Shown here: positions 8,676-62,249 of the stretch, piece after piece
Position numbering within the stretch: position 1 is the first letter of the stretch
Layout: every line of letters starts with the position of its first letter
From: Desulfobulbaceae bacterium
GTDB taxonomy: Bacteria; Desulfobacterota; Desulfobulbia; Desulfobulbales; Desulfocapsaceae
Assembly (NCBI GenBank): GCA_019163335.1
Contig: JAFLKM010000008.1
Location: 1 to 64,000 of the forward strand
Length of the DNA stretch: 64,000 nt
Direction: 5' to 3'
Translations under genes and position numbers: made by a program
The notes under the pieces: model-generated
The model's database searches: none
What the model was told of the DNA's origin: nothing
Seen by the model: the letters and a program-made list of their open reading frames with translations, nothing else

Positions 8676-9838
8676 TGAATAGCGGAAATAATGCATATCT
8701 CTGGCAACAGGTGGATTGGCCCAACTGGCGCTATGACATCCAGCGTCTGGCCGGAATTCTGGCGCAGGTGCATCACGCGCAAGGGTACCTGCATGGCCGC
8801 ATGCATGCCTTGGGGCTGGGCGTAAACGATGAGGCTCTATTGCAGGTCTTGAGTGAGGATGTCCTCAAAACCAGTGAAATCGAGGGGGAGCGGCTGAATC
8901 CGGAAACGGTGCGCTCATCCATCGCCCGCCGTCTGGGTATCGATATTGGCGCCTTGGCACCCGCTGACCGCCATGTTGACGGCATCGTCGATATGGTTCT
9001 GGATGCGACGGGTTCCTTTGATCAGCCATTGACCGCCCAGCGTCTATTTGGCTGGCATGCCGCATTATTTCCCACTGGATACAGCGGCATGACCAGAATC
9101 CGTGCCGGTGCCTGGCGTGATGATACCTCGGGCCCGATGCAGGTAGTATCAGGGCCGATCGGTCGCCAAAAGATTCATTTTGAAGCACCGCCGGCCCATC
9201 GACTGGAGGCCGGGATAATAGAGTTCCTCGGCTGGTTCAATGGAGACCAAAATGCCGATCCGCTGGTGAAAGCGGGTCTGGCCCATTTGTGGTTTGTCAC
9301 CCTTCATCCCTTTGACGATGGCAATGGCCGAATGGCACGGGCGATAGGCGATATGGCGCTGGCCCGTGGCGAACAATCGGCGCAACGATTCTACAGCCTG
9401 TCGGCGCAAATCCAGCACGAGCGGAAAGACTATTACGAGAGACTTGAGCGCACCCAGAAAGGTTCACTTGATGTAACCGACTGGCTGGAATGGTTTCTGG
9501 GGTGCCTGTTACGGGCGATAATGGGGGCGGAAGGGATTGGCGCCGCTGTCTTGACCAAGGCCCGGTTCTGGCAGCGATTTGCCGGCGCACCATTCAATGA
9601 CCGCCAAATTAAACTTCTCAACCGCCTTCTGGATGGGTTCGAAGGAAAGCTGACCAGCAGCAAATGGGCAACCATCGCCAAGTGCTCACCAGATACAGCA
9701 CTGCGCGACATCGGGGACCTGGTGGCGCGGGGTGTCATGATCAAATCCAACGCCGGCGGACGAAGCACCAGCTATGAGCTGGAAAATGTAGAAGGACGGA
9801 AGGTGGACGGAGTTGCGGAGGTCAAAGCCCCCTCTTGA
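8675..9838 (+). CDS. Fic family protein with DUF4172 N-terminal domain
   Basis: A 387-residue protein. Residues about 8-85 match the DUF4172 region that precedes Fic domains. TSEIEGER near residue 67 fits the inhibitory motif (S/T)xxxE(G/N), so this is a class II Fic protein whose inhibitory helix lies N-terminal to the catalytic core. HPFDDGNGRMAR near residue 210 is the catalytic Fic motif (HPFxxGNGR), intact. Most such enzymes transfer AMP to target hydroxyls. A C-terminal winged-helix-like part (KWATIAKCSPDTALRDIGDLV) could bind DNA. The final residues (GVAEVKAPS) are encoded inside R-repeat sequence, so the natural C-terminus may have been replaced. Confidence 0.9.
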   Translation: MNSGNNAYLWQQVDWPNWRYDIQRLAGILAQVHHAQGYLHGRMHALGLGVNDEALLQVLSEDVLKTSEIEGERLNPETVRSSIARRLGIDIGALAPADRHVDGIVDMVLDATGSFDQPLTAQRLFGWHAALFPTGYSGMTRIRAGAWRDDTSGPMQVVSGPIGRQKIHFEAPPAHRLEAGIIEFLGWFNGDQNADPLVKAGLAHLWFVTLHPFDDGNGRMARAIGDMALARGEQSAQRFYSLSAQIQHERKDYYERLERTQKGSLDVTDWLEWFLGCLLRAIMGAEGIGAAVLTKARFWQRFAGAPFNDRQIKLLNRLLDGFEGKLTSSKWATIAKCSPDTALRDIGDLVARGVMIKSNAGGRSTSYELENVEGRKVDGVAEVKAPS

Positions 9839-9845
9839 TGTTAAG
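9821..9845 (+). repeat. R repeat copy 7, truncated
   Basis: GTCAAAGCCCCCTCTTGATG then TTAAG, after which the sequence diverges. The right half of the stem and the GGGGGAGTTAAGG tail are missing. It supplies the fic stop codon. Confidence 0.75.
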
Positions 9846-9852
9846 TAAGGGA

Positions 9853-10218
9853 ATGGTATTGATCAGTGTTGATCTTGCTGAAATATCTGAGAAATAATTA
9901 TGTTTGGTAGTTTCGCCTGTTCATTTTGTTGAAATTAAGTCAATATCCGACAATATGGAACGGATAGAATTGCTTAGTATTATCGAGCGTTATGGAACAT
10001 TACTGGAAATTGATAAGGGAATAACTCGCTTGAGAGCTGAGTAATTGGTTCGATTCGGTTTTGACCCCGCTGATGCTGCGCATGTTGCGTTTGCCGAAGC
10101 AGGGGAGGCGAAATTTATTACATGCGATGATAAGTTGCTGAAAAAATGCAAGAAACACAATGTGCACACTTGGTGCGGTAGTCCGGTACATTTCTGTGCC
10201 GAGGAGGAGTTACGATGA
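9853..10218 (+). pseudogene. PIN-domain (VapC-like) toxin remnant
   Basis: One frame, interrupted by TAA at about 9895 and TAA at about 10042, encodes VVSPVHFVEIKSISDNMERI, then YGTLLEID, then RFGFDPADAAHVAFAEAGEA and KFITCDDKLLKKCKKHNV. This order of segments (SPVH-E, DAAHVA, F-T-DD-LL) is that of PIN-domain ribonucleases. The N-terminal DxN strand is absent, so the gene is truncated as well as interrupted. Its TGA stop overlaps the ATG of the following small gene, showing the former operon. Confidence 0.75.
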
Positions 10219-10412
10219 AAACTGAACGATATCTTGCAGAGGAAGCGGCAATTAAAAAAGGTGTTGATATTCTGGTCAGGGAGTTGGGCCCGGTTGAGGC
10301 GATGCGGTTCATGAACTTACCTCGTGATCGTCGGCTGGAAACCGTGAAGCGAAATCAAGAATGGCAGAAATTATTGGATAAGGATCGTTTTTTTGACGAG
10401 GTCTTTGGGTAA
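10215..10412 (+). CDS. Small partner protein of the PIN remnant
   Basis: A 65-residue acidic/basic helical protein (AIKKGVDILVRELGPVEAMR, then FMNLPRDRRLETVKRNQEW) preceded by GAGGAGG. It starts within the stop of the PIN-like remnant (ATGA). Proteins of this size next to PIN genes are often antitoxins, but no family was recognised with certainty. It remains intact although the putative toxin is dead. Confidence 0.6.
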   Translation: MKTERYLAEEAAIKKGVDILVRELGPVEAMRFMNLPRDRRLETVKRNQEWQKLLDKDRFFDEVFG

Positions 10413-53888: not shown

Positions 53889-54773
<885 letters not shown>

Positions 54774-54830: not shown

Positions 54831-55187
54831 ATGTTGACCATGATCAGAGCAATCGTCAGACCGGAGAAAGCAGACAAGATACTTGCATCCCTTATGGATG
54901 CCGGGTTCCCCTCTGTTACGAAATACGCCGTTGCCGGCCGTGGCAAGCAACGCGGCATCAAGATCGGCGATGTTACCTATGATGAGATTCCAAAGGTCAT
55001 GCTGATGTGCGTAATCAACCCTGCGGACAAGGAATTTGTCCTCAATACGATCATGGGTGCCGCCAAATCGGGAATTAAAGGGGCTTTTGGCGATGGCAAA
55101 ATTTTTGTCAGTGATGTGGAAGAGGCTTATACCATTAGCTCCGGTGTTAAGGAGACGGCATTTGAAACCGAGAGGGGGCCGGTATGA
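54831..55187 (+). CDS. nifI1: PII-like nitrogenase regulator NifI1
   Basis: A 118-residue PII-family protein (MIRAIVRPEKADKILASLMD, a T-loop with TKYAVAGRGKQRGIKIGD, and FGDGKIFVSDVEEAYTISSG). In methanogens and other anaerobes NifI1 and NifI2 form a complex that binds NifDK and switches the nitrogenase off when ammonium is added. It lies between nifH and nifD, the typical site. It overlaps nifI2 by 4 bases. Confidence 0.95.
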   Translation: MLTMIRAIVRPEKADKILASLMDAGFPSVTKYAVAGRGKQRGIKIGDVTYDEIPKVMLMCVINPADKEFVLNTIMGAAKSGIKGAFGDGKIFVSDVEEAYTISSGVKETAFETERGPV

Positions 55188-55558
55188 AAGAGGTGATCGC
55201 TATTGTGCGTATAAACATGATGAACCAGACCAAACAGGCCCTCACCGATGCCGGCATTGATGCCTTTTTTGCCCACGAGGCCCATGGCCGGGGCAAGGGG
55301 TTTGTCAATCTCCATGTCCTTGAGGGAGCGAACCGGGGCTACGAAGAGGCTGCATCCATACTGGGTGAAAAAGGGAAACTTTATGGCAAGCGCGTTGTAA
55401 CGGTTGTGGTCAAGGATGAACAAGTGCCGGAGGTGGTTGCTGCCATCATTAGTGTCAATCAAACCGGCAAGCCCGGTGACGGCAAGATCTTTGTCTCGCC
55501 TCTGGCCGATGCGGTGCGGGTGCGTACGGGAGAGACGGGACAAAAAGCCATCATCTAA
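55184..55558 (+). CDS. nifI2: PII-like nitrogenase regulator NifI2
   Basis: A 124-residue PII-family protein (VIAIVRINMMNQTKQALTDA, FFAHEAHGRGKGFVNLHVLE, NQTGKPGDGKIFVSPLADAV). The longer and divergent T-loop is characteristic of NifI2, which binds ATP and 2-oxoglutarate in the known systems. It is followed by a 388-base gap with an inverted-repeat element before nifD. Confidence 0.95.
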   Translation: MKEVIAIVRINMMNQTKQALTDAGIDAFFAHEAHGRGKGFVNLHVLEGANRGYEEAASILGEKGKLYGKRVVTVVVKDEQVPEVVAAIISVNQTGKPGDGKIFVSPLADAVRVRTGETGQKAII

Positions 55559-55946: not shown

Positions 55947-57587
55947 ATGGCAATATCAACCCTGAAAAAAATAGTACCGGATGATCCGGCTCATATCAAG
56001 GCCGAGCTGCTGGCCAAGTATCCGTCGAAGGTAGCGCGTAAGCGATCCAAGCAGATCATGATCAACGAGGCTATGGAGAACACTACGCCGGAGATTTCGG
56101 CAAACGTCCGTACCACCCCCGGCATTATTACCATGCGTGGTTGTAGTTATGCCGGATGCAAGGGTGTTATCATGGGGCCGACCCGCGATGTTGTGAATCT
56201 GGTGCACGGTCCCATCGGCTGCAGCTTTTACGCCTGGCTGACCCGCCGGAACCAAACCAACGCCGGGACCGATGGCGTCAACTATATGAATTACTGCTTC
56301 AGCACCGATATGCAGGATTCGGACATTATATTTGGCGGGGAGAAAAAGCTGGAGGCTGCTATCCAGGAGGCCTATGACCTCTTTCACCCTCGATCCATCG
56401 CCATTTTTGCCACCTGTCCCGTGGGTCTGATCGGGGATGATATTCATACCGTGGCCAAAAGGATGAAGGAGAAGTTTGGAGATTGTAATGTCTTCGCCTT
56501 TTCCTGCGAGGGGTACAAGGGTGTTTCTCAGTCTGCCGGCCATCATATTGCCAACAATCAGATCTTTCGCCACATTGTGGGCGAGAATGATGAGGTTAAG
56601 CCCGGCAAGTACAAGATCAACCTGCTTGGCGAGTATAATATCGGCGGTGACGGTTTTGAGATCGACCGGATTTTCAAGAAGTGCGGGATCACCAATATCT
56701 CCACCTTCTCCGGCAACTCCACCTACGATCAGTTTGCCTCGTGCCATACCGCTGATCTGAACGCGGTTATGTGTCATCGCTCGATCAACTACGTGGCCGA
56801 TATGCTCGAGACTAAATACGGAATTCCATGGGTGAAGGTGAACTTTATCGGCGCTGAGGCCACCGCCAAGTCGCTGCGTAAGATTGCCGCTTATTTTGGT
56901 GAGAAGGAACTTATTGACCAGGTGGAGGCCGTCATAGCCGAGGAAATGCCCGATGTTGAGAAAGCCATTGCCGATGTTAAGCCCCGTACCCAGGGCAAGA
57001 CGGCGATGATGTTCCTTGGTGGTTCGCGGGCCCATCATTATCAGGAGCTGTTTAAGGAAATGGGAATGAGGATTATCGCTGCCGGGTATGAGTTTGCCCA
57101 TCGCGATGACTATGAAGGACGGAAGGTTATCCCGGACCTCAAGGTGGATGCCGACAGCCGGAATATTGAAGAGATAGAGGTCTTTCGTGACGAGGCCAAG
57201 TTCAAGGCACGCAAGACTCCGGAAGAGATGAAGGCCTTGGAAGACTCCGGCTATAAGTTCAAGGAGTATGACGGCATGGCTCCGGACATGGAGAAAGACA
57301 CCCTGATTATTGATGATCTCAATCAGTATGAGGCGGAAAAGCTGGTGGAAATGATGAAACCGGATCTCTTCTGCGGCGGAATCAAGGAGAAGTATTCCAT
57401 TCAGAAGCTCGGTGTGCCCATGAAGCAGCTGCACAGTTATGACTCCGGCGGCCCCTATGCCGGGTTCAAGGGTGCGATCAATTTCTACTATGAGATTGAC
57501 CGTCTGGTAAACAGCAGGGTCTGGAGCTATATGAAGGCCCCATGGCAGGATAATCCCCAGCTTTCAGCAACATACGGCTGGGAATAA
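55947..57587 (+). CDS. nifD: Nitrogenase MoFe protein alpha chain NifD
   Basis: A 546-residue protein from ATG 55947 (AAGGAGGAAGG in front). P-cluster cysteines are in GCSYAGCKGV, HGPIGCSFY and FATCPVGLIGDD. FeMo-co residues are present: the Gln/His pair (GVSQSAGHHIANN), the cofactor Cys in AVMCHRSINY and the His in MKQLHSYDSGG. An insertion of about 50 residues near 395-450 (FKARKTPEEMKALED and so on) and the short NifK place it in the Clostridium-type group II. The frame is open further upstream, but only this start has a site. Confidence 0.97.
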   Translation: MAISTLKKIVPDDPAHIKAELLAKYPSKVARKRSKQIMINEAMENTTPEISANVRTTPGIITMRGCSYAGCKGVIMGPTRDVVNLVHGPIGCSFYAWLTRRNQTNAGTDGVNYMNYCFSTDMQDSDIIFGGEKKLEAAIQEAYDLFHPRSIAIFATCPVGLIGDDIHTVAKRMKEKFGDCNVFAFSCEGYKGVSQSAGHHIANNQIFRHIVGENDEVKPGKYKINLLGEYNIGGDGFEIDRIFKKCGITNISTFSGNSTYDQFASCHTADLNAVMCHRSINYVADMLETKYGIPWVKVNFIGAEATAKSLRKIAAYFGEKELIDQVEAVIAEEMPDVEKAIADVKPRTQGKTAMMFLGGSRAHHYQELFKEMGMRIIAAGYEFAHRDDYEGRKVIPDLKVDADSRNIEEIEVFRDEAKFKARKTPEEMKALEDSGYKFKEYDGMAPDMEKDTLIIDDLNQYEAEKLVEMMKPDLFCGGIKEKYSIQKLGVPMKQLHSYDSGGPYAGFKGAINFYYEIDRLVNSRVWSYMKAPWQDNPQLSATYGWE

Positions 57588-57692: not shown

Positions 57693-59066
57693 ATGTTATT
57701 ACGACACACACCCAAAGAAATTACAGAGCGCAGTGCCTTGATGATTAATCCGGCCAAGACCTGCCAGCCCATTGGCGCCATGTATGCCTCACTGGGCATC
57801 CATGGTTGTCTTCCCCACAGTCACGGTTCCCAGGGCTGCTGCGCCTATCATCGCAGCGCCTTGACCCGGCATTACAAAGAGCCGGTTTCCGCCTCCACCA
57901 GCTCCTTCACAGAAGGTTCCTCGGTGTTCGGCGGGCAGGCCAACATGCTTCAGGCCATTGAAAATATCTTCGCCGTCTATAACCCGGAGATCATTGCCTG
58001 CCATACCACCTGTCTTTCTGAGACCATCGGGGATGATCTGAAGCAGATTCGCAAAAAAGCCATTACCGAGGGCAAGATCCCGGAAGGAAAGTTCATGATC
58101 AGCGCCTCGACACCCAGTTATGTCGGTTCGCATGTCACCGGTTTTTCCAACATGGTCAAGTCCATGGTCGGACTTGCCGAGCCCACCGGCAAGAAGAACG
58201 GCAAGGTGAATATTATCCCCGGCTGGGTTGAGCCGGCGGACATGGAAGAGATCAGGAGAATCACCAATATGATCGGGGTGAAGACCATTATGTTTCCGGA
58301 TACCTCCGGAGTTTTGAATGGCCCTCTGTCTGGTGAGTTCAAGATGTATCCCGATGGCGGGGTGACTGTTGCGGAACTGCAGTCAACCGGCGATTCCATC
58401 GGCACCCTGGCCTTGGGAGAATGGTGTTCTGCTGACGCTGCCCGTGAGCTTGATGTCAAGCACAAGGTGCCCTGCCAGATCCTTGATATGCCCTTCGGGC
58501 TCAAGGCCACCGATCGTTTCATCGACGCCCTGCGTATCATCGCCGGGGTTACCGTCCCAGACGAGTTGTCCATGGAGCGCGGACAGCTGGTGGACATGAT
58601 TTCTGATATGCATCAGTATGTGTATCACAAAAAAGTGGCATTGGTGGGCGACCCGGATCAGGTCATTGCCATGACTGAGTTCCTGGTTTCCATTGATATG
58701 TGTCCAATTCATATAGTGACCGGCACCCCGGGCAAGGCCTTTGAGCGCCGGATCAAGGAAATTACCAAGGATATGCCCTTCCCCTGCAACGTCAGGGCCA
58801 AAGGCGATATGTTCCTGCTCCATCAGTGGATAAAGAACGATCCGGTCGATCTGCTTATCGGCAACACCTATTGCAAGTATATCTCCCGGGATGAGGATAT
58901 CCCATTGGTTCGCTGGGGATTCCCCATCCTCGATCGGCAGGGACATCAGTACTTCCCTACCGTTGGCTACAAGGGTGCCTTGCGGCTGTTGGAAAAGATT
59001 TTAGGCGTCATTCAGGATCGCAAGGATCGTGATGATACGGAATCAAAATTCGAGCTTGTCCTGTAA
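57693..59066 (+). CDS. nifK: Nitrogenase MoFe protein beta chain NifK
   Basis: A 457-residue protein with the P-cluster cysteines in TCQPIGAMYAS, HGSQGCCAYHRS and CHTTCLSETIGDD. It lacks the long N-terminal extension of Azotobacter-type NifK, as in the Clostridium type. CGAGG lies before ATG 57693. Together with NifD it forms the alpha2-beta2 MoFe protein. NifE and NifN do not follow in the window. Confidence 0.97.
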   Translation: MLLRHTPKEITERSALMINPAKTCQPIGAMYASLGIHGCLPHSHGSQGCCAYHRSALTRHYKEPVSASTSSFTEGSSVFGGQANMLQAIENIFAVYNPEIIACHTTCLSETIGDDLKQIRKKAITEGKIPEGKFMISASTPSYVGSHVTGFSNMVKSMVGLAEPTGKKNGKVNIIPGWVEPADMEEIRRITNMIGVKTIMFPDTSGVLNGPLSGEFKMYPDGGVTVAELQSTGDSIGTLALGEWCSADAARELDVKHKVPCQILDMPFGLKATDRFIDALRIIAGVTVPDELSMERGQLVDMISDMHQYVYHKKVALVGDPDQVIAMTEFLVSIDMCPIHIVTGTPGKAFERRIKEITKDMPFPCNVRAKGDMFLLHQWIKNDPVDLLIGNTYCKYISRDEDIPLVRWGFPILDRQGHQYFPTVGYKGALRLLEKILGVIQDRKDRDDTESKFELVL

Positions 59067-59271: not shown

Positions 59272-60447
59272 ATGACACCTCTTGCCACTACGAAATGTAC
59301 CTGTTCATCAACCCCCCATTCCCCGCAAGGACGATGGGTGGAGTTGCCGGTCGCGTCGCGCGCCAATAATCGTATCCGATTTGCCGCAACCGGCGAGTCC
59401 CTCGAGGGCATGAGTCCTGTTGAGGCGCTGGCCTGGTTGGCTGAGACTGTGGACAAGGGGGCCGCCTTTGACGGGGTGACCCTTGCCGGGCCCGGTGATC
59501 CGCTCGCAGATCTTGGGTCAACCCTTGAGACTCTGCGTCTGATCCGGGAAAAGTACCCTGAAATGGAGTTAGGGATTACCACTCTGGGGCTGGGGGCGGA
59601 ACAGGCAGCCGAGGCGCTTCTTCAGGCCGGCGTTAGTCGGGTGACCCTCCTCGTGGATGGAATTGATCTGGAGATCATCCGTAAGTTGTATGCCTGGATC
59701 CGTCCAGGCTCCCGGACGGTTCCATTACCCACTGCCACTGAATTGCTTTTGAGTGAGCAGGTCATGGCCATGAATGCCTTTGCTGGCAACGGATGTACCT
59801 TGGGGATAAAAACGACTATTTATCCAGGATATAATGATGGCCACGCCGAGGACATTGCCCGTATCATGGCTTCGTTGGGGGCGGAGTTCATGGCCGTTGC
59901 GTCCTATGTCCCGGTGGAAGGGGAGGAGGCCCTCCTTGAGCGGCCAAGTCCGGAGATGATGGCATTGATTTATGCCCAGGTGGAAAAATATCTTCGCCTG
60001 ATCGTTATCCCGGAGCAGAAGGCAGCGCATGGTCAAAACTGTTCCGATTGCGGTTGTCAGTCTGCGGCTTCATCCCAGCCAAAACCCAGCACCGAGCGAC
60101 CCAATGTGGCGGTGGTCAGTTCCGGGGGGATGGAGGTTGATCTCCACCTTGGTCATGCCACAAAAGCCTTGATTTATGGCCCCAGAGAAGATGGTCTTAC
60201 CTGTCTGCTCGAGACCAGAAGCCTGCCGGAGCCGGGATTTGGATCGGCCCGCTGGGAACTGTTGGCGGATATTTTGAAAGATTGTTTTGCCCTTCTGACA
60301 GCCAGCGCCGGTGAGAGCCCTAAAAAGATTCTGGCTGGTCGAGGAATCCGGGTTTTGATTACCAATGATGATATCGCAGGGATAGTCGATGTTCTCTATG
60401 GTGGAGGAAAGAAAGGGAGTCAGTGCCGTAAGGGAAAAGCTGTTTAA
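59272..60447 (+). CDS. NifB-like protein lacking the radical-SAM cysteines, with C-terminal NifX-like domain
   Basis: A 391-residue protein from ATG 59272; a GTG at 59200 is open but gives a longer unusual N-terminus. The body follows NifB: LAGPGDPLADLGSTLETLRL, then RVTLLVDGIDLEIIRKLYAW and TIYPGYNDGHAEDIARI. In NifB the N-terminal CxxxCxxC segment follows a PVAP-type motif; here the same place reads ELPVASRANNRIRFAATGE, with Ala, Ile and Ala where the cysteines should be. Residues about 270-380 resemble NifX/NafY-type cofactor-binding domains (VAVVSSGGMEVDLHLGHATK, GIRVLITNDDIAGIVDVLYG). It is probably a cofactor carrier or chaperone, not a radical-SAM enzyme (inference). A standard NifB must lie elsewhere. 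Confidence 0.85.
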   Translation: MTPLATTKCTCSSTPHSPQGRWVELPVASRANNRIRFAATGESLEGMSPVEALAWLAETVDKGAAFDGVTLAGPGDPLADLGSTLETLRLIREKYPEMELGITTLGLGAEQAAEALLQAGVSRVTLLVDGIDLEIIRKLYAWIRPGSRTVPLPTATELLLSEQVMAMNAFAGNGCTLGIKTTIYPGYNDGHAEDIARIMASLGAEFMAVASYVPVEGEEALLERPSPEMMALIYAQVEKYLRLIVIPEQKAAHGQNCSDCGCQSAASSQPKPSTERPNVAVVSSGGMEVDLHLGHATKALIYGPREDGLTCLLETRSLPEPGFGSARWELLADILKDCFALLTASAGESPKKILAGRGIRVLITNDDIAGIVDVLYGGGKKGSQCRKGKAV

Positions 60448-60463
60448 TCAGCGTAATTCCACG

Positions 60464-60571
60464 TCTAAATCAAGCGTTCACTTCGTCGAATGCGCTACGC
60501 CGCTCCTCACCGTACTCGCTGTACTGCTTTGTCGCGGCTCGCTTTTCTCCTCGTGTACATCTTGATTTAGA
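60464..60571. repeat. 108-bp MITE-like element
   Basis: Perfect 11-bp terminal inverted repeats TCTAAATCAAG (60464) and CTTGATTTAGA (60561). The inside (CGCTACGCCGCTCCTCACCG, GTACTCGCTGTACTGC) has the look of a mobile repeat. It lies between the NifB-like and ferredoxin genes. Confidence 0.75.
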
Positions 60572-60613: not shown

Positions 60614-60916
60614 ATGGCAATTCCAGAACGGCTTATTCTTGTATGTCAGAGTTTTCGGGTGGCAGGCGATAAAAAAGGTATCTGCCACAAGCAGACCGAT
60701 GGGTTCCTCCAGTATCTGGAAGAAGAGATTCTTGATCGTGGGCTTGATTGCCTTGTTGCCGCAACCACCTGTCTTAAAAGGTGCGATTCCGGGCCGATCA
60801 TGGTGGTTCAGCCGGATAACTGGTGGTTTAAAGGGGTAGACAGCCATGACGCCATTGATGCAATTCTTGATGGCATTGAAGATGGCACACCGGCAGCCGC
60901 CTATCAGCTAGACTGA
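60614..60916 (+). CDS. Thioredoxin-like 2Fe-2S ferredoxin
   Basis: A 100-residue protein. Cys11, Cys24, Cys53 and Cys57 (LVCQSF, GICHKQ, TTCLKRCDSG) follow the C-x12-C...C-x3-C pattern of the Clostridium pasteurianum-type thioredoxin-like ferredoxin. VVQPDNWWFKGV is typical of this family too. These ferredoxins occur in many nif operons and can bind or protect nitrogenase or donate electrons. AAAGGGG precedes the ATG. Confidence 0.88.
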   Translation: MAIPERLILVCQSFRVAGDKKGICHKQTDGFLQYLEEEILDRGLDCLVAATTCLKRCDSGPIMVVQPDNWWFKGVDSHDAIDAILDGIEDGTPAAAYQLD

Positions 60917-60932
60917 TCACGGAACGCCTGTC

Positions 60933-61394
60933 ATGGTCAACATTCGACCGGCCCGGCTTGCGGATCTTGAAAGCCTGGTCGAACTTTTGCAGATGCTCTT
61001 TGAGCTGGAACAGGATTTTGAGGGCAATCCGTCTCGCCAGCAGCAGGGACTGCGGATGATGCTGGACAACCCCAATGGCTGTGTGATGGTGGCCCAAGGG
61101 GATGGGCAGGTGATCGGCATGTGTTCCGGTCAACTGCTGATTTCCACGGCAGAAGGCGGTCCGGCCCTTTTGGTTGAAGATGTGGTTGTCCGTGAACCAT
61201 GGCGGGGCCGCGGGGTTGGACGTCTGCTGATGGAGGCGATCAGCGCCTGGGCGAAGGATAAAAAGGTTGATCGTTTACAACTGTTGGCTGATCGGAATAA
61301 TACAGCGGCGCTGGAGTTTTACCGCTGTCTGGGCTGGCAGGGCACGGAGCTTATCTGCCTGCGAAACTTTATTGGTGATAAGGATTGCAGGTGA
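60933..61394 (+). CDS. GNAT-family acetyltransferase in the nif locus
   Basis: A 153-residue protein with the acetyl-CoA loop VVVREPWRGRGVGRLLMEA near residues 85-103 and RLQLLADRNNTAALEFYRCL. Its start lies 16 bases after the ferredoxin stop, so they are co-transcribed. GNAT genes next to this ferredoxin type have been seen in nif regions; the substrate is unknown. Confidence 0.88.
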   Translation: MVNIRPARLADLESLVELLQMLFELEQDFEGNPSRQQQGLRMMLDNPNGCVMVAQGDGQVIGMCSGQLLISTAEGGPALLVEDVVVREPWRGRGVGRLLMEAISAWAKDKKVDRLQLLADRNNTAALEFYRCLGWQGTELICLRNFIGDKDCR

Positions 61395-61666: not shown

Positions 61667-61847
61667 AAGCCTGTTTGACGGTGAGACCGATTGTAAAATA
61701 AGATGAGCAGTACTTGAGATTTCTTATGGACCACCCCATTCAGGACACGATAGCCTGGATGGGGTGGAACTGTTTCAGGCTATTGCAGTTGGTGGAGTAT
61801 CCTCATGGGAATGATCCTTTGAGAAATAAACCGTGGAGGCGTACATA

Positions 61848-62249
61848 ATGGAGCTTATACAGATCAGCGATTGGCGGCAGTATCTCAAGGAAGGCGAGCA
61901 GTATTTGGCTACCGCCGTGGGCGCAGCAGCGAGGCGCAGTGACGTCTTCACCCCGGAGATTTTATATAATATCACCGCAATGGCCATTGAAAAGCTGATC
62001 ATGGGCTACCTCATGAGTCGGGGCGATCTGGCCGATAATCATACCATGGGGGATCTGCTGAACGCAGTGGAGCGAAATGCGGGGCCGCAGCCGGAATTGG
62101 GGGCCAAGCTGCGTTTTCTCGATGGGTACCAGGAAATCTGTGATATCGATACCTACCGGCACGATGCCCCAGATCCAGCCGATATTCCAGAGATTCTGGC
62201 CATCGGTCAGATGGTCAAGGATTTTGTCGATGCGCGGGTGAAACTCTAA
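61848..62249 (+). CDS. HEPN-like unknown protein
   Basis: A 133-residue helical protein from ATG 61848 (MELIQISDWRQYLKEGEQYL), with GGAGG 9 bases before. A segment (YNITAMAIEKLIMGYLMSRG, then DNHTMGDLLNAVERN) recalls HEPN-domain proteins; the RNase motif R-x4-6-H is not obvious. It is separated from the previous gene by 181 bases. Function unknown. Confidence 0.6.
   Translation: MELIQISDWRQYLKEGEQYLATAVGAAARRSDVFTPEILYNITAMAIEKLIMGYLMSRGDLADNHTMGDLLNAVERNAGPQPELGAKLRFLDGYQEICDIDTYRHDAPDPADIPEILAIGQMVKDFVDARVKL

Follow-up and report, generated by a model that had tools for sequence, protein, structure and literature searches.

A NifB paralogue beside the nitrogenase genes of many sulfur-cycling bacteria probably carries cofactor rather than making it

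In both Azotobacter and Klebsiella, nifY sits after nifK. Cofactorless MoFe protein is bound by NafY and NifY in A. vinelandii, according to PMC6016461, and PMC8496260 describes NafY as an apo-NifDK-binding N-terminal domain joined to a FeMo-co-binding core. The cofactor ligand of the carriers NifX and NafY is given as a histidine, H35 of NifX for NifB-co and H121 of NafY for FeMo-co (PMC13128457 and PMC8496260), and NifB is characterised by six fingerprint motifs (PMC5715403). Desulfocapsa sulfexigens grows on N2, and PMC3739170 places two unnamed genes between its nifK and a ‘nitrogenase associated protein’. The locus examined here combines features of these systems in a NifB paralogue that has lost its radical-SAM cysteines.

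Gene order and catalytic residues

The window, i.e. the whole stretch of 64,000 nucleotides analysed (contig JAFLKM010000008.1 of a Desulfobulbaceae bacterium), carries on its forward strand the order nifH-nifI1-nifI2-nifD-nifK-pNifB-2Fe-2S ferredoxin, in which pNifB is a name coined in the present analysis for the paralogue clade described below. The genes nifH (53949-54773), nifD (55947-57587) and nifK (57693-59066, immediately 5' of pNifB) score above the cut-offs of TIGR01287, TIGR01282 and TIGR01286, respectively, and the profile matches to PII-like nif regulators at 54831-55558 are presumably nifI1 and nifI2, names assigned by position. The pNifB frame (59272-60447) opens with an ATG at 59272, closes with a stop at 60445-60447 and encodes 391 amino acids, read from profiles and alignment as a putative pseudoenzyme barrel of the NifB type followed by a NifX-like domain. 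Immediately 3' of it, the gene at 60614-60916 was assigned as a 2Fe-2S ferredoxin on synteny together with a match to NF041612 (E = 3.7e-14, 53.1 bits) that falls under the family cut-off of 150. A full nifB, the presence of which elsewhere in the genome had been raised as a question in the earlier note, lies on the same contig (C7 of genome G000) at 84388-85725, where it is complete with nifE and nifN and has the HPC, CNIKCNYC, ExRP and CxxCR motifs; its start lies 24 kb 3' of the stop codon of pNifB, and 566 bases of contig remain after nifB.

Two further features of the neighbourhood were observed. The intergenic stretch immediately 3' of pNifB holds an element of approximately 96 bp (60470-60565) that matches 25 places in the genome, its own included, and resembles a dispersed repeat. 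An ORF without a Pfam match at E <= 1 (61833-62249) and a GNAT acetyltransferase gene (60933-61394) recur in 74/100 and 79/100 distinct pNifB loci, respectively, the loci compared being of unequal length.

The kinship with NifB that had been read from the letters alone is borne out by profile comparisons: pNifB matches TIGR01290 at E = 2.4e-32 (112.2 bits, short of the 343.65 cut-off), and a profile built from 21 relatives matches the solved NifB 7bi7 at E = 3.7e-39, scores at which the homology is not chance. Residue conservation was assessed over 119 pNifB rows taken by best BLAST hit from fetched loci, of which 100 were distinct (101 including the window), and over 22 NifB rows (23 including the genome's own), each row being assigned to pNifB or NifB according to whether it resembled the window protein or the NifB of the window genome. 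Rows of two assembly-gap loci, one small NifX-like protein and four NifB rows shorter than 300 aa were left out, and ligand numbering follows MaNifB (PMC7145814), transferred to the genome's NifB by motif.

In an alignment with NifB of the same genome (...PVAPKCNIKCNYC...), the segment of pNifB that corresponds to CxxxCxxC, PVASRANNRIRFA (59347-59385), has Ala31, Ile35 and Ala38 in place of the three cysteines, exactly the residues first noticed there. This loss is common to the related nif loci: CxxxCxxC occurs in 0/101 distinct homologues, the first and second cysteines are never present, and the third alone is found in nine, leaving 92/101 with none of the three. All 101 homologues have a gap at the KYDC column and 100/101 at the ExRP columns, CxxCR is lost, with its second cysteine and the K1 C129 position each being Cys in only 8/101, the K1 H43 position is His in 17/101, and the Asn of STNG is Leu in 82/101. 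A cysteine aligns with that of HPC in 57/101, in an N-terminus that is poorly aligned. In the window protein, the HPC, ExRP, TxTxN and Cx2CRxDAxG motifs are all absent, and the sole fingerprint motif kept is AGPGDPLA (59485-59508), the GPG of which is present in at least 97% of the 101. Gly106, Trp142, Arg144, Gln163 and Asn188 of the barrel are conserved at the same level (at least 97%) and, like GPG, are mostly common to NifB, whereas Pro145 (99/101) differs from the NifB residue, which is Asp in 20/23. Replacement cluster ligands were also sought; since an N-terminal CxC is present in only 34/101 and the number of linker cysteines varies from 0 to 6, pNifB has no conserved new cluster site. 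One homologue (locus L176 of genome G295, 8858-10232, forward strand) keeps HPC and the TNG asparagine and lacks the radical-SAM cysteines, a pattern that would fit a member of the clade that is less derived.

No homologue of the gene with intact cysteines was encountered, and none of the 117 loci having both nifK and the ferredoxin gene has a NifB-type ORF between them. Recent decay was rejected as a reading, the cysteine loss being common to all 101 and dN/dS being low, as was a misread start, against which the invariance of Met1 in the 21-sequence alignment speaks.

A NifX-like domain does follow the barrel, at approximately residues 276-380 (60097-60411), scoring just above the PF02579 cut-off (26.5 vs 26.3 bits) and having a mean identity of 63% over the 101 homologues. 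His292 (60145-60147), in VDLHLG, is invariant, as are Leu293, Gly294, Arg316, Arg327, Trp328, Asp337, Cys338 and Gly347 (all 101/101). It aligns with His35 of NifX (PDB sequence 9ian, the number obtained by counting its residues) and with H121 of the NafY core (1p90), in pairwise matches that are weak (E = 0.28 and 0.54) and whose register is fixed by the Asp-x-His-x-Gly common to them. The Asp two residues N-terminal of it, Asp290, is present in 98/101 and likewise in NifX and NafY, and is Asn in all 22 NifB rows having a letter there. The histidine itself is retained in the C-terminal domain of NifB (22/22), such that its invariance in pNifB may reflect inheritance and cannot alone separate a carrier from an inherited domain. 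The protein ends in a Gly/Lys-rich tail (60397-60444), which is basic in 93/101.

Selection, fold and distribution

Among 20 genomes with both proteins, the mean pairwise identity of pNifB is 38% in the barrel and 57% in the NifX domain, compared with 60% and 57% for NifB, and the NifX domain is the more similar part in 190/190 pNifB pairs vs 33/190 NifB pairs. The NifX-like domain of pNifB is thus as constrained as that of NifB, and relaxation is confined to the barrel. The barrel is nevertheless still under purifying selection, with dN/dS in four close pairs of 0.12-0.18, against 0.02-0.11 for the NifX part and 0.10-0.15 for the whole gene. The predicted barrel is intact, with means of pLDDT over 10-residue blocks of 71-96 across residues 21-240, and the model matches NifB crystal structures in VIA searches at Z 27-28 (rmsd 1.9-2.6; Z 28.1 to 7jma) and NifB 6y1x in Foldseek at E = 2.9e-21. 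The model thus contains a radical-SAM barrel fold, for which Pfam PF04055 scores 24.4 bits, under its cut-off of 29.5. Confidence for the C-terminal domain is low to middling, and lower still (pLDDT <50) in the loop bearing His292 (286-295); a NifX or NafY match for this domain is absent from the VIA list, which is filled by matches to the barrel.

A match to the window protein, whether pNifB or NifB, is present in 36/58 relatives. At the class level, 158/257 genomes match the family profile at E <= 1e-40, comprising 141 classed as pNifB-carrying and 17 as NifB-grade only, mostly by score rather than by gene-by-gene reading. In 140 of the 141 the score is at least as good as 1.4e-101; the gene of the remaining genome (G196, 4.5e-88) was read at the sequence level, and as the canonical NifB of G261 scores marginally better (2.1e-88), a score cut alone cannot split the families. 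When 84,980 species genomes were scanned, 109 relatives were confirmed, and because the search patterns lay in the NifX-like domain and YAWIRP the scan did not select for cysteine loss. Taxa among 80 of the 109 include Desulfobulbaceae, Desulfocapsa, Desulfopila, Pseudodesulfovibrio, Humidesulfovibrio, Desulfamplus, a cable bacterium (Electrothrix) and others, along with MAGs labelled Proteobacteria, Deltaproteobacteria or bacterium. Isolates with a species name among them are, for example, Pseudodesulfovibrio pelocollis, Desulfopila aestuarii and Desulfobulbus rhabdoformis. In a phylum sample, 58/395 genomes had a match at 1e-60, with pNifB-grade matches outside the class in six genomes of family f29 and one of f54; f91 has one divergent member, the gene of which likewise lies between nifK and ferredoxin. 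Within the class of G307, 10/63 genomes match at 1e-70, the pNifB-grade ones being the same six of f29.

Other phyla were covered through the plasmid collection only. The presence of pNifB on plasmids was rejected among the 15 listed of 231 matching records: two of three N. vulgaris hits were opened, both leading to a nif cluster without pNifB, H4, H5, H6 and H8 were also opened, and the remainder were judged by annotation. On the Treponema saccharophilum plasmid pTS2 (L226), a radical SAM gene, a NifB/NifX-family gene and nifH adjoin one another, with sulfur-amino-acid genes beside them.

Two quick trees, one of 45 pNifB and 23 NifB and the other of 27, 24 and three proteobacterial NifB, each included a subset of the 101 pNifB rows, the second minus four long-branched ones. 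In both, all pNifB fall on one side of a single branch with full SH-aLRT support, and as this branch is long the depth of the split from NifB is uncertain. The position right after nifK, seen in the window from the outset, holds in 95/96 testable loci (gap <600 bases; exception L120), and ferredoxin is next downstream (<900) in 93/97 (exceptions L127, L121, L182 and L137). The genes therefore form one paralogue clade across the class with fixed synteny.

Related loci without the full gene were also observed. In G205 (L187 / L217), which also has nifENB, the gene directly 3' of nifK encodes only a NifX domain (145 aa, sharing 52% identity with the window protein) and seems to be a pNifB from which a domain was deleted naturally. 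There is no pNifB behind nifK in G040, G199, G045, G134 and G248, whose nifK shares 78-85% identity with the window nifK, nor between nifK and ferredoxin of N. vulgaris, which indicates that the protein is dispensable or replaceable and not a universal subunit. Among the other genomes of the 17 classed as NifB-grade only, four with a more divergent nifK (G046, G249, G250 and G252) also have no pNifB there, and none was seen behind the partial nifK of G129. The gene is cut off by a contig end in G088, the contig of G121 stops behind nifK, and G077, G084, G101 and G242 gave NifN-like matches only.

Candidate functions

The explanation that we favour, at about an even chance, makes pNifB a NifB paralogue without catalytic activity that serves, in the manner of NafY/NifY, as a two-domain cofactor carrier and apo-NifDK chaperone. 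Its NifX-like domain would hold FeMo-co or its precursor NifB-co, ligands that sequence cannot distinguish, through His292. The barrel, minus the radical-SAM cluster and most K1/K2 ligands, would act as a docking domain that recognises apo-NifDK, encoded by the adjacent genes, and maintains it in a state able to receive the cofactor. G205, which keeps the NifX domain after nifK and manages without the barrel, speaks for the carrier role and weakens the docking role, and the carrier role is countered by K. oxytoca NifB, whose C-terminal NifX-like domain is not needed in vivo according to PMC5715403. Alternatively, pNifB could be a NifX-type shuttle that moves NifB-co from NifB to NifEN, with the barrel contacting NifB or NifEN. 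This we consider unlikely, though it would suit the descent from NifB, whose C-terminal domain is NifX-like, and the ligand histidine common to pNifB and NifX. It would also suit the distribution of PF02579 matches, those on the nif contig being nifB and pNifB only and three more in the genome lying inside other contigs, with no nif genes seen within the 8 kb around each (ORFs of at least 110 aa). However, pNifB is linked to nifK and ferredoxin and often distant from nifEN, and some genomes (G037, G038 and G051) have both pNifB and a NifX-like gene beside nifB. NifX uses its C terminus to dock onto a positive patch on NifE (PMC13128457), and the basic pNifB tail would be the opposite of what such a patch attracts. 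The carrier and apo-NifDK chaperone is favoured over the shuttle because of its NafY-like two-domain logic and nifY-like gene position.

Inactive paralogues frequently regulate their active counterparts, and pNifB, its cofactor site being kept, might bind or buffer NifB-co or pair with NifB, setting output or signalling supply without delivery. Nitrogenase activity rose when K. oxytoca NifB was deprived of its NifX-like domain, an effect that PMC5715403 interprets as possible flux control and that would fit such a partner or regulator; we nonetheless hold this role to be quite improbable, as the gene is linked to nifK rather than nifB and no DNA-binding or signalling domain was found in Pfam at E <= 1, on which ground a regulator with a DNA-binding domain was rejected. 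Of the two roles that the earlier note had proposed, carrier or regulator, the former thus appears strengthened by the invariant histidine and barrel-only relaxation, and the latter gained no specific support. Very unlikely, too, is a barrel that has retained the binding of a small ligand (cluster-less SAM or an Fe-S precursor) and supplies the NifX domain, in a protein that acts on the cofactor beyond carrying it; the nearly invariant GPG, the predicted fold with its Z of 27-28 and the frequent cysteine at the HPC position would fit, but pNifB has lost the radical-SAM cysteines together with the KYDC/ExRP segment, the STNG Asn is mostly Leu, and the CxC and linker cysteines are inconstant. 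A functionless, decaying nifB duplicate could account for the lost catalytic residues and for a barrel evolving faster than that of NifB, yet is hardly credible given open frames, the low whole-gene dN/dS, and a single class-wide clade with fixed synteny and invariant NifX-domain residues.

On the favoured explanation of a carrier and apo-NifDK chaperone, a sulfur-cycling diazotroph lineage may have turned a duplicated radical-SAM maturase into a cofactor chaperone/insertase that delivers to NifDK in place of NafY/NifY, a scenario to which we give slightly less than an even chance. A search for the NafY N-terminal domain gave 0/58 relatives, in a test whose family control also matched nowhere. 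pNifB is real and conserved, and a cysteine-less NifB paralogue beside nifK is undescribed as far as a search of literature titles and abstract openings shows, a scope outside which subscription papers and bioRxiv preprints fall. As FeMo-co delivery to NifDK is poorly known outside model diazotrophs, pNifB is a candidate delivery factor and a small part of possible use in nitrogenase engineering, and it can be miscounted as a second nifB in similarity searches. If the explanation is true, the enzyme making the cofactor core would have given rise to a protein delivering the finished cofactor to NifDK, showing reuse of a radical-SAM barrel without its cluster.

Comparison with known systems

The two-domain type of NifB has the same plan of radical-SAM barrel and NifX-like domain, and the descent of pNifB from it is clear. 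In contrast to NifB, pNifB lacks CxxxCxxC and has a gap at the KYDC cysteine in 101/101, and the window protein keeps one of the six fingerprint motifs of PMC5715403 (AGPG) and reaches one third of the TIGR01290 cut-off. NafY and NifY resemble pNifB in having two domains with a NifX-like C-terminal one and in a gene position at the nifHDK end; the histidine aligns with H121 of NafY, whereas NifY is without it (PMC13128457). Their N-terminal parts differ, that of pNifB being a NifB-like barrel as opposed to the all-helical N-NafY domain, with no match to PF16844 (DIMCO_N / N-NafY) in a Pfam scan at E <= 1. NifX shares the NifX-like domain with Asp-x-His-x-Gly and a histidine, H35, at the position of His292, and differs from pNifB, which is fused to a barrel, linked to nifK and equipped with a basic C-terminal tail. 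pNifB is not a NifB and most likely works like a carrier of the NafY/NifX type, i.e. the NifB copy beside the nitrogenase genes of many sulfur-cycling bacteria probably carries the cofactor and does not make it.
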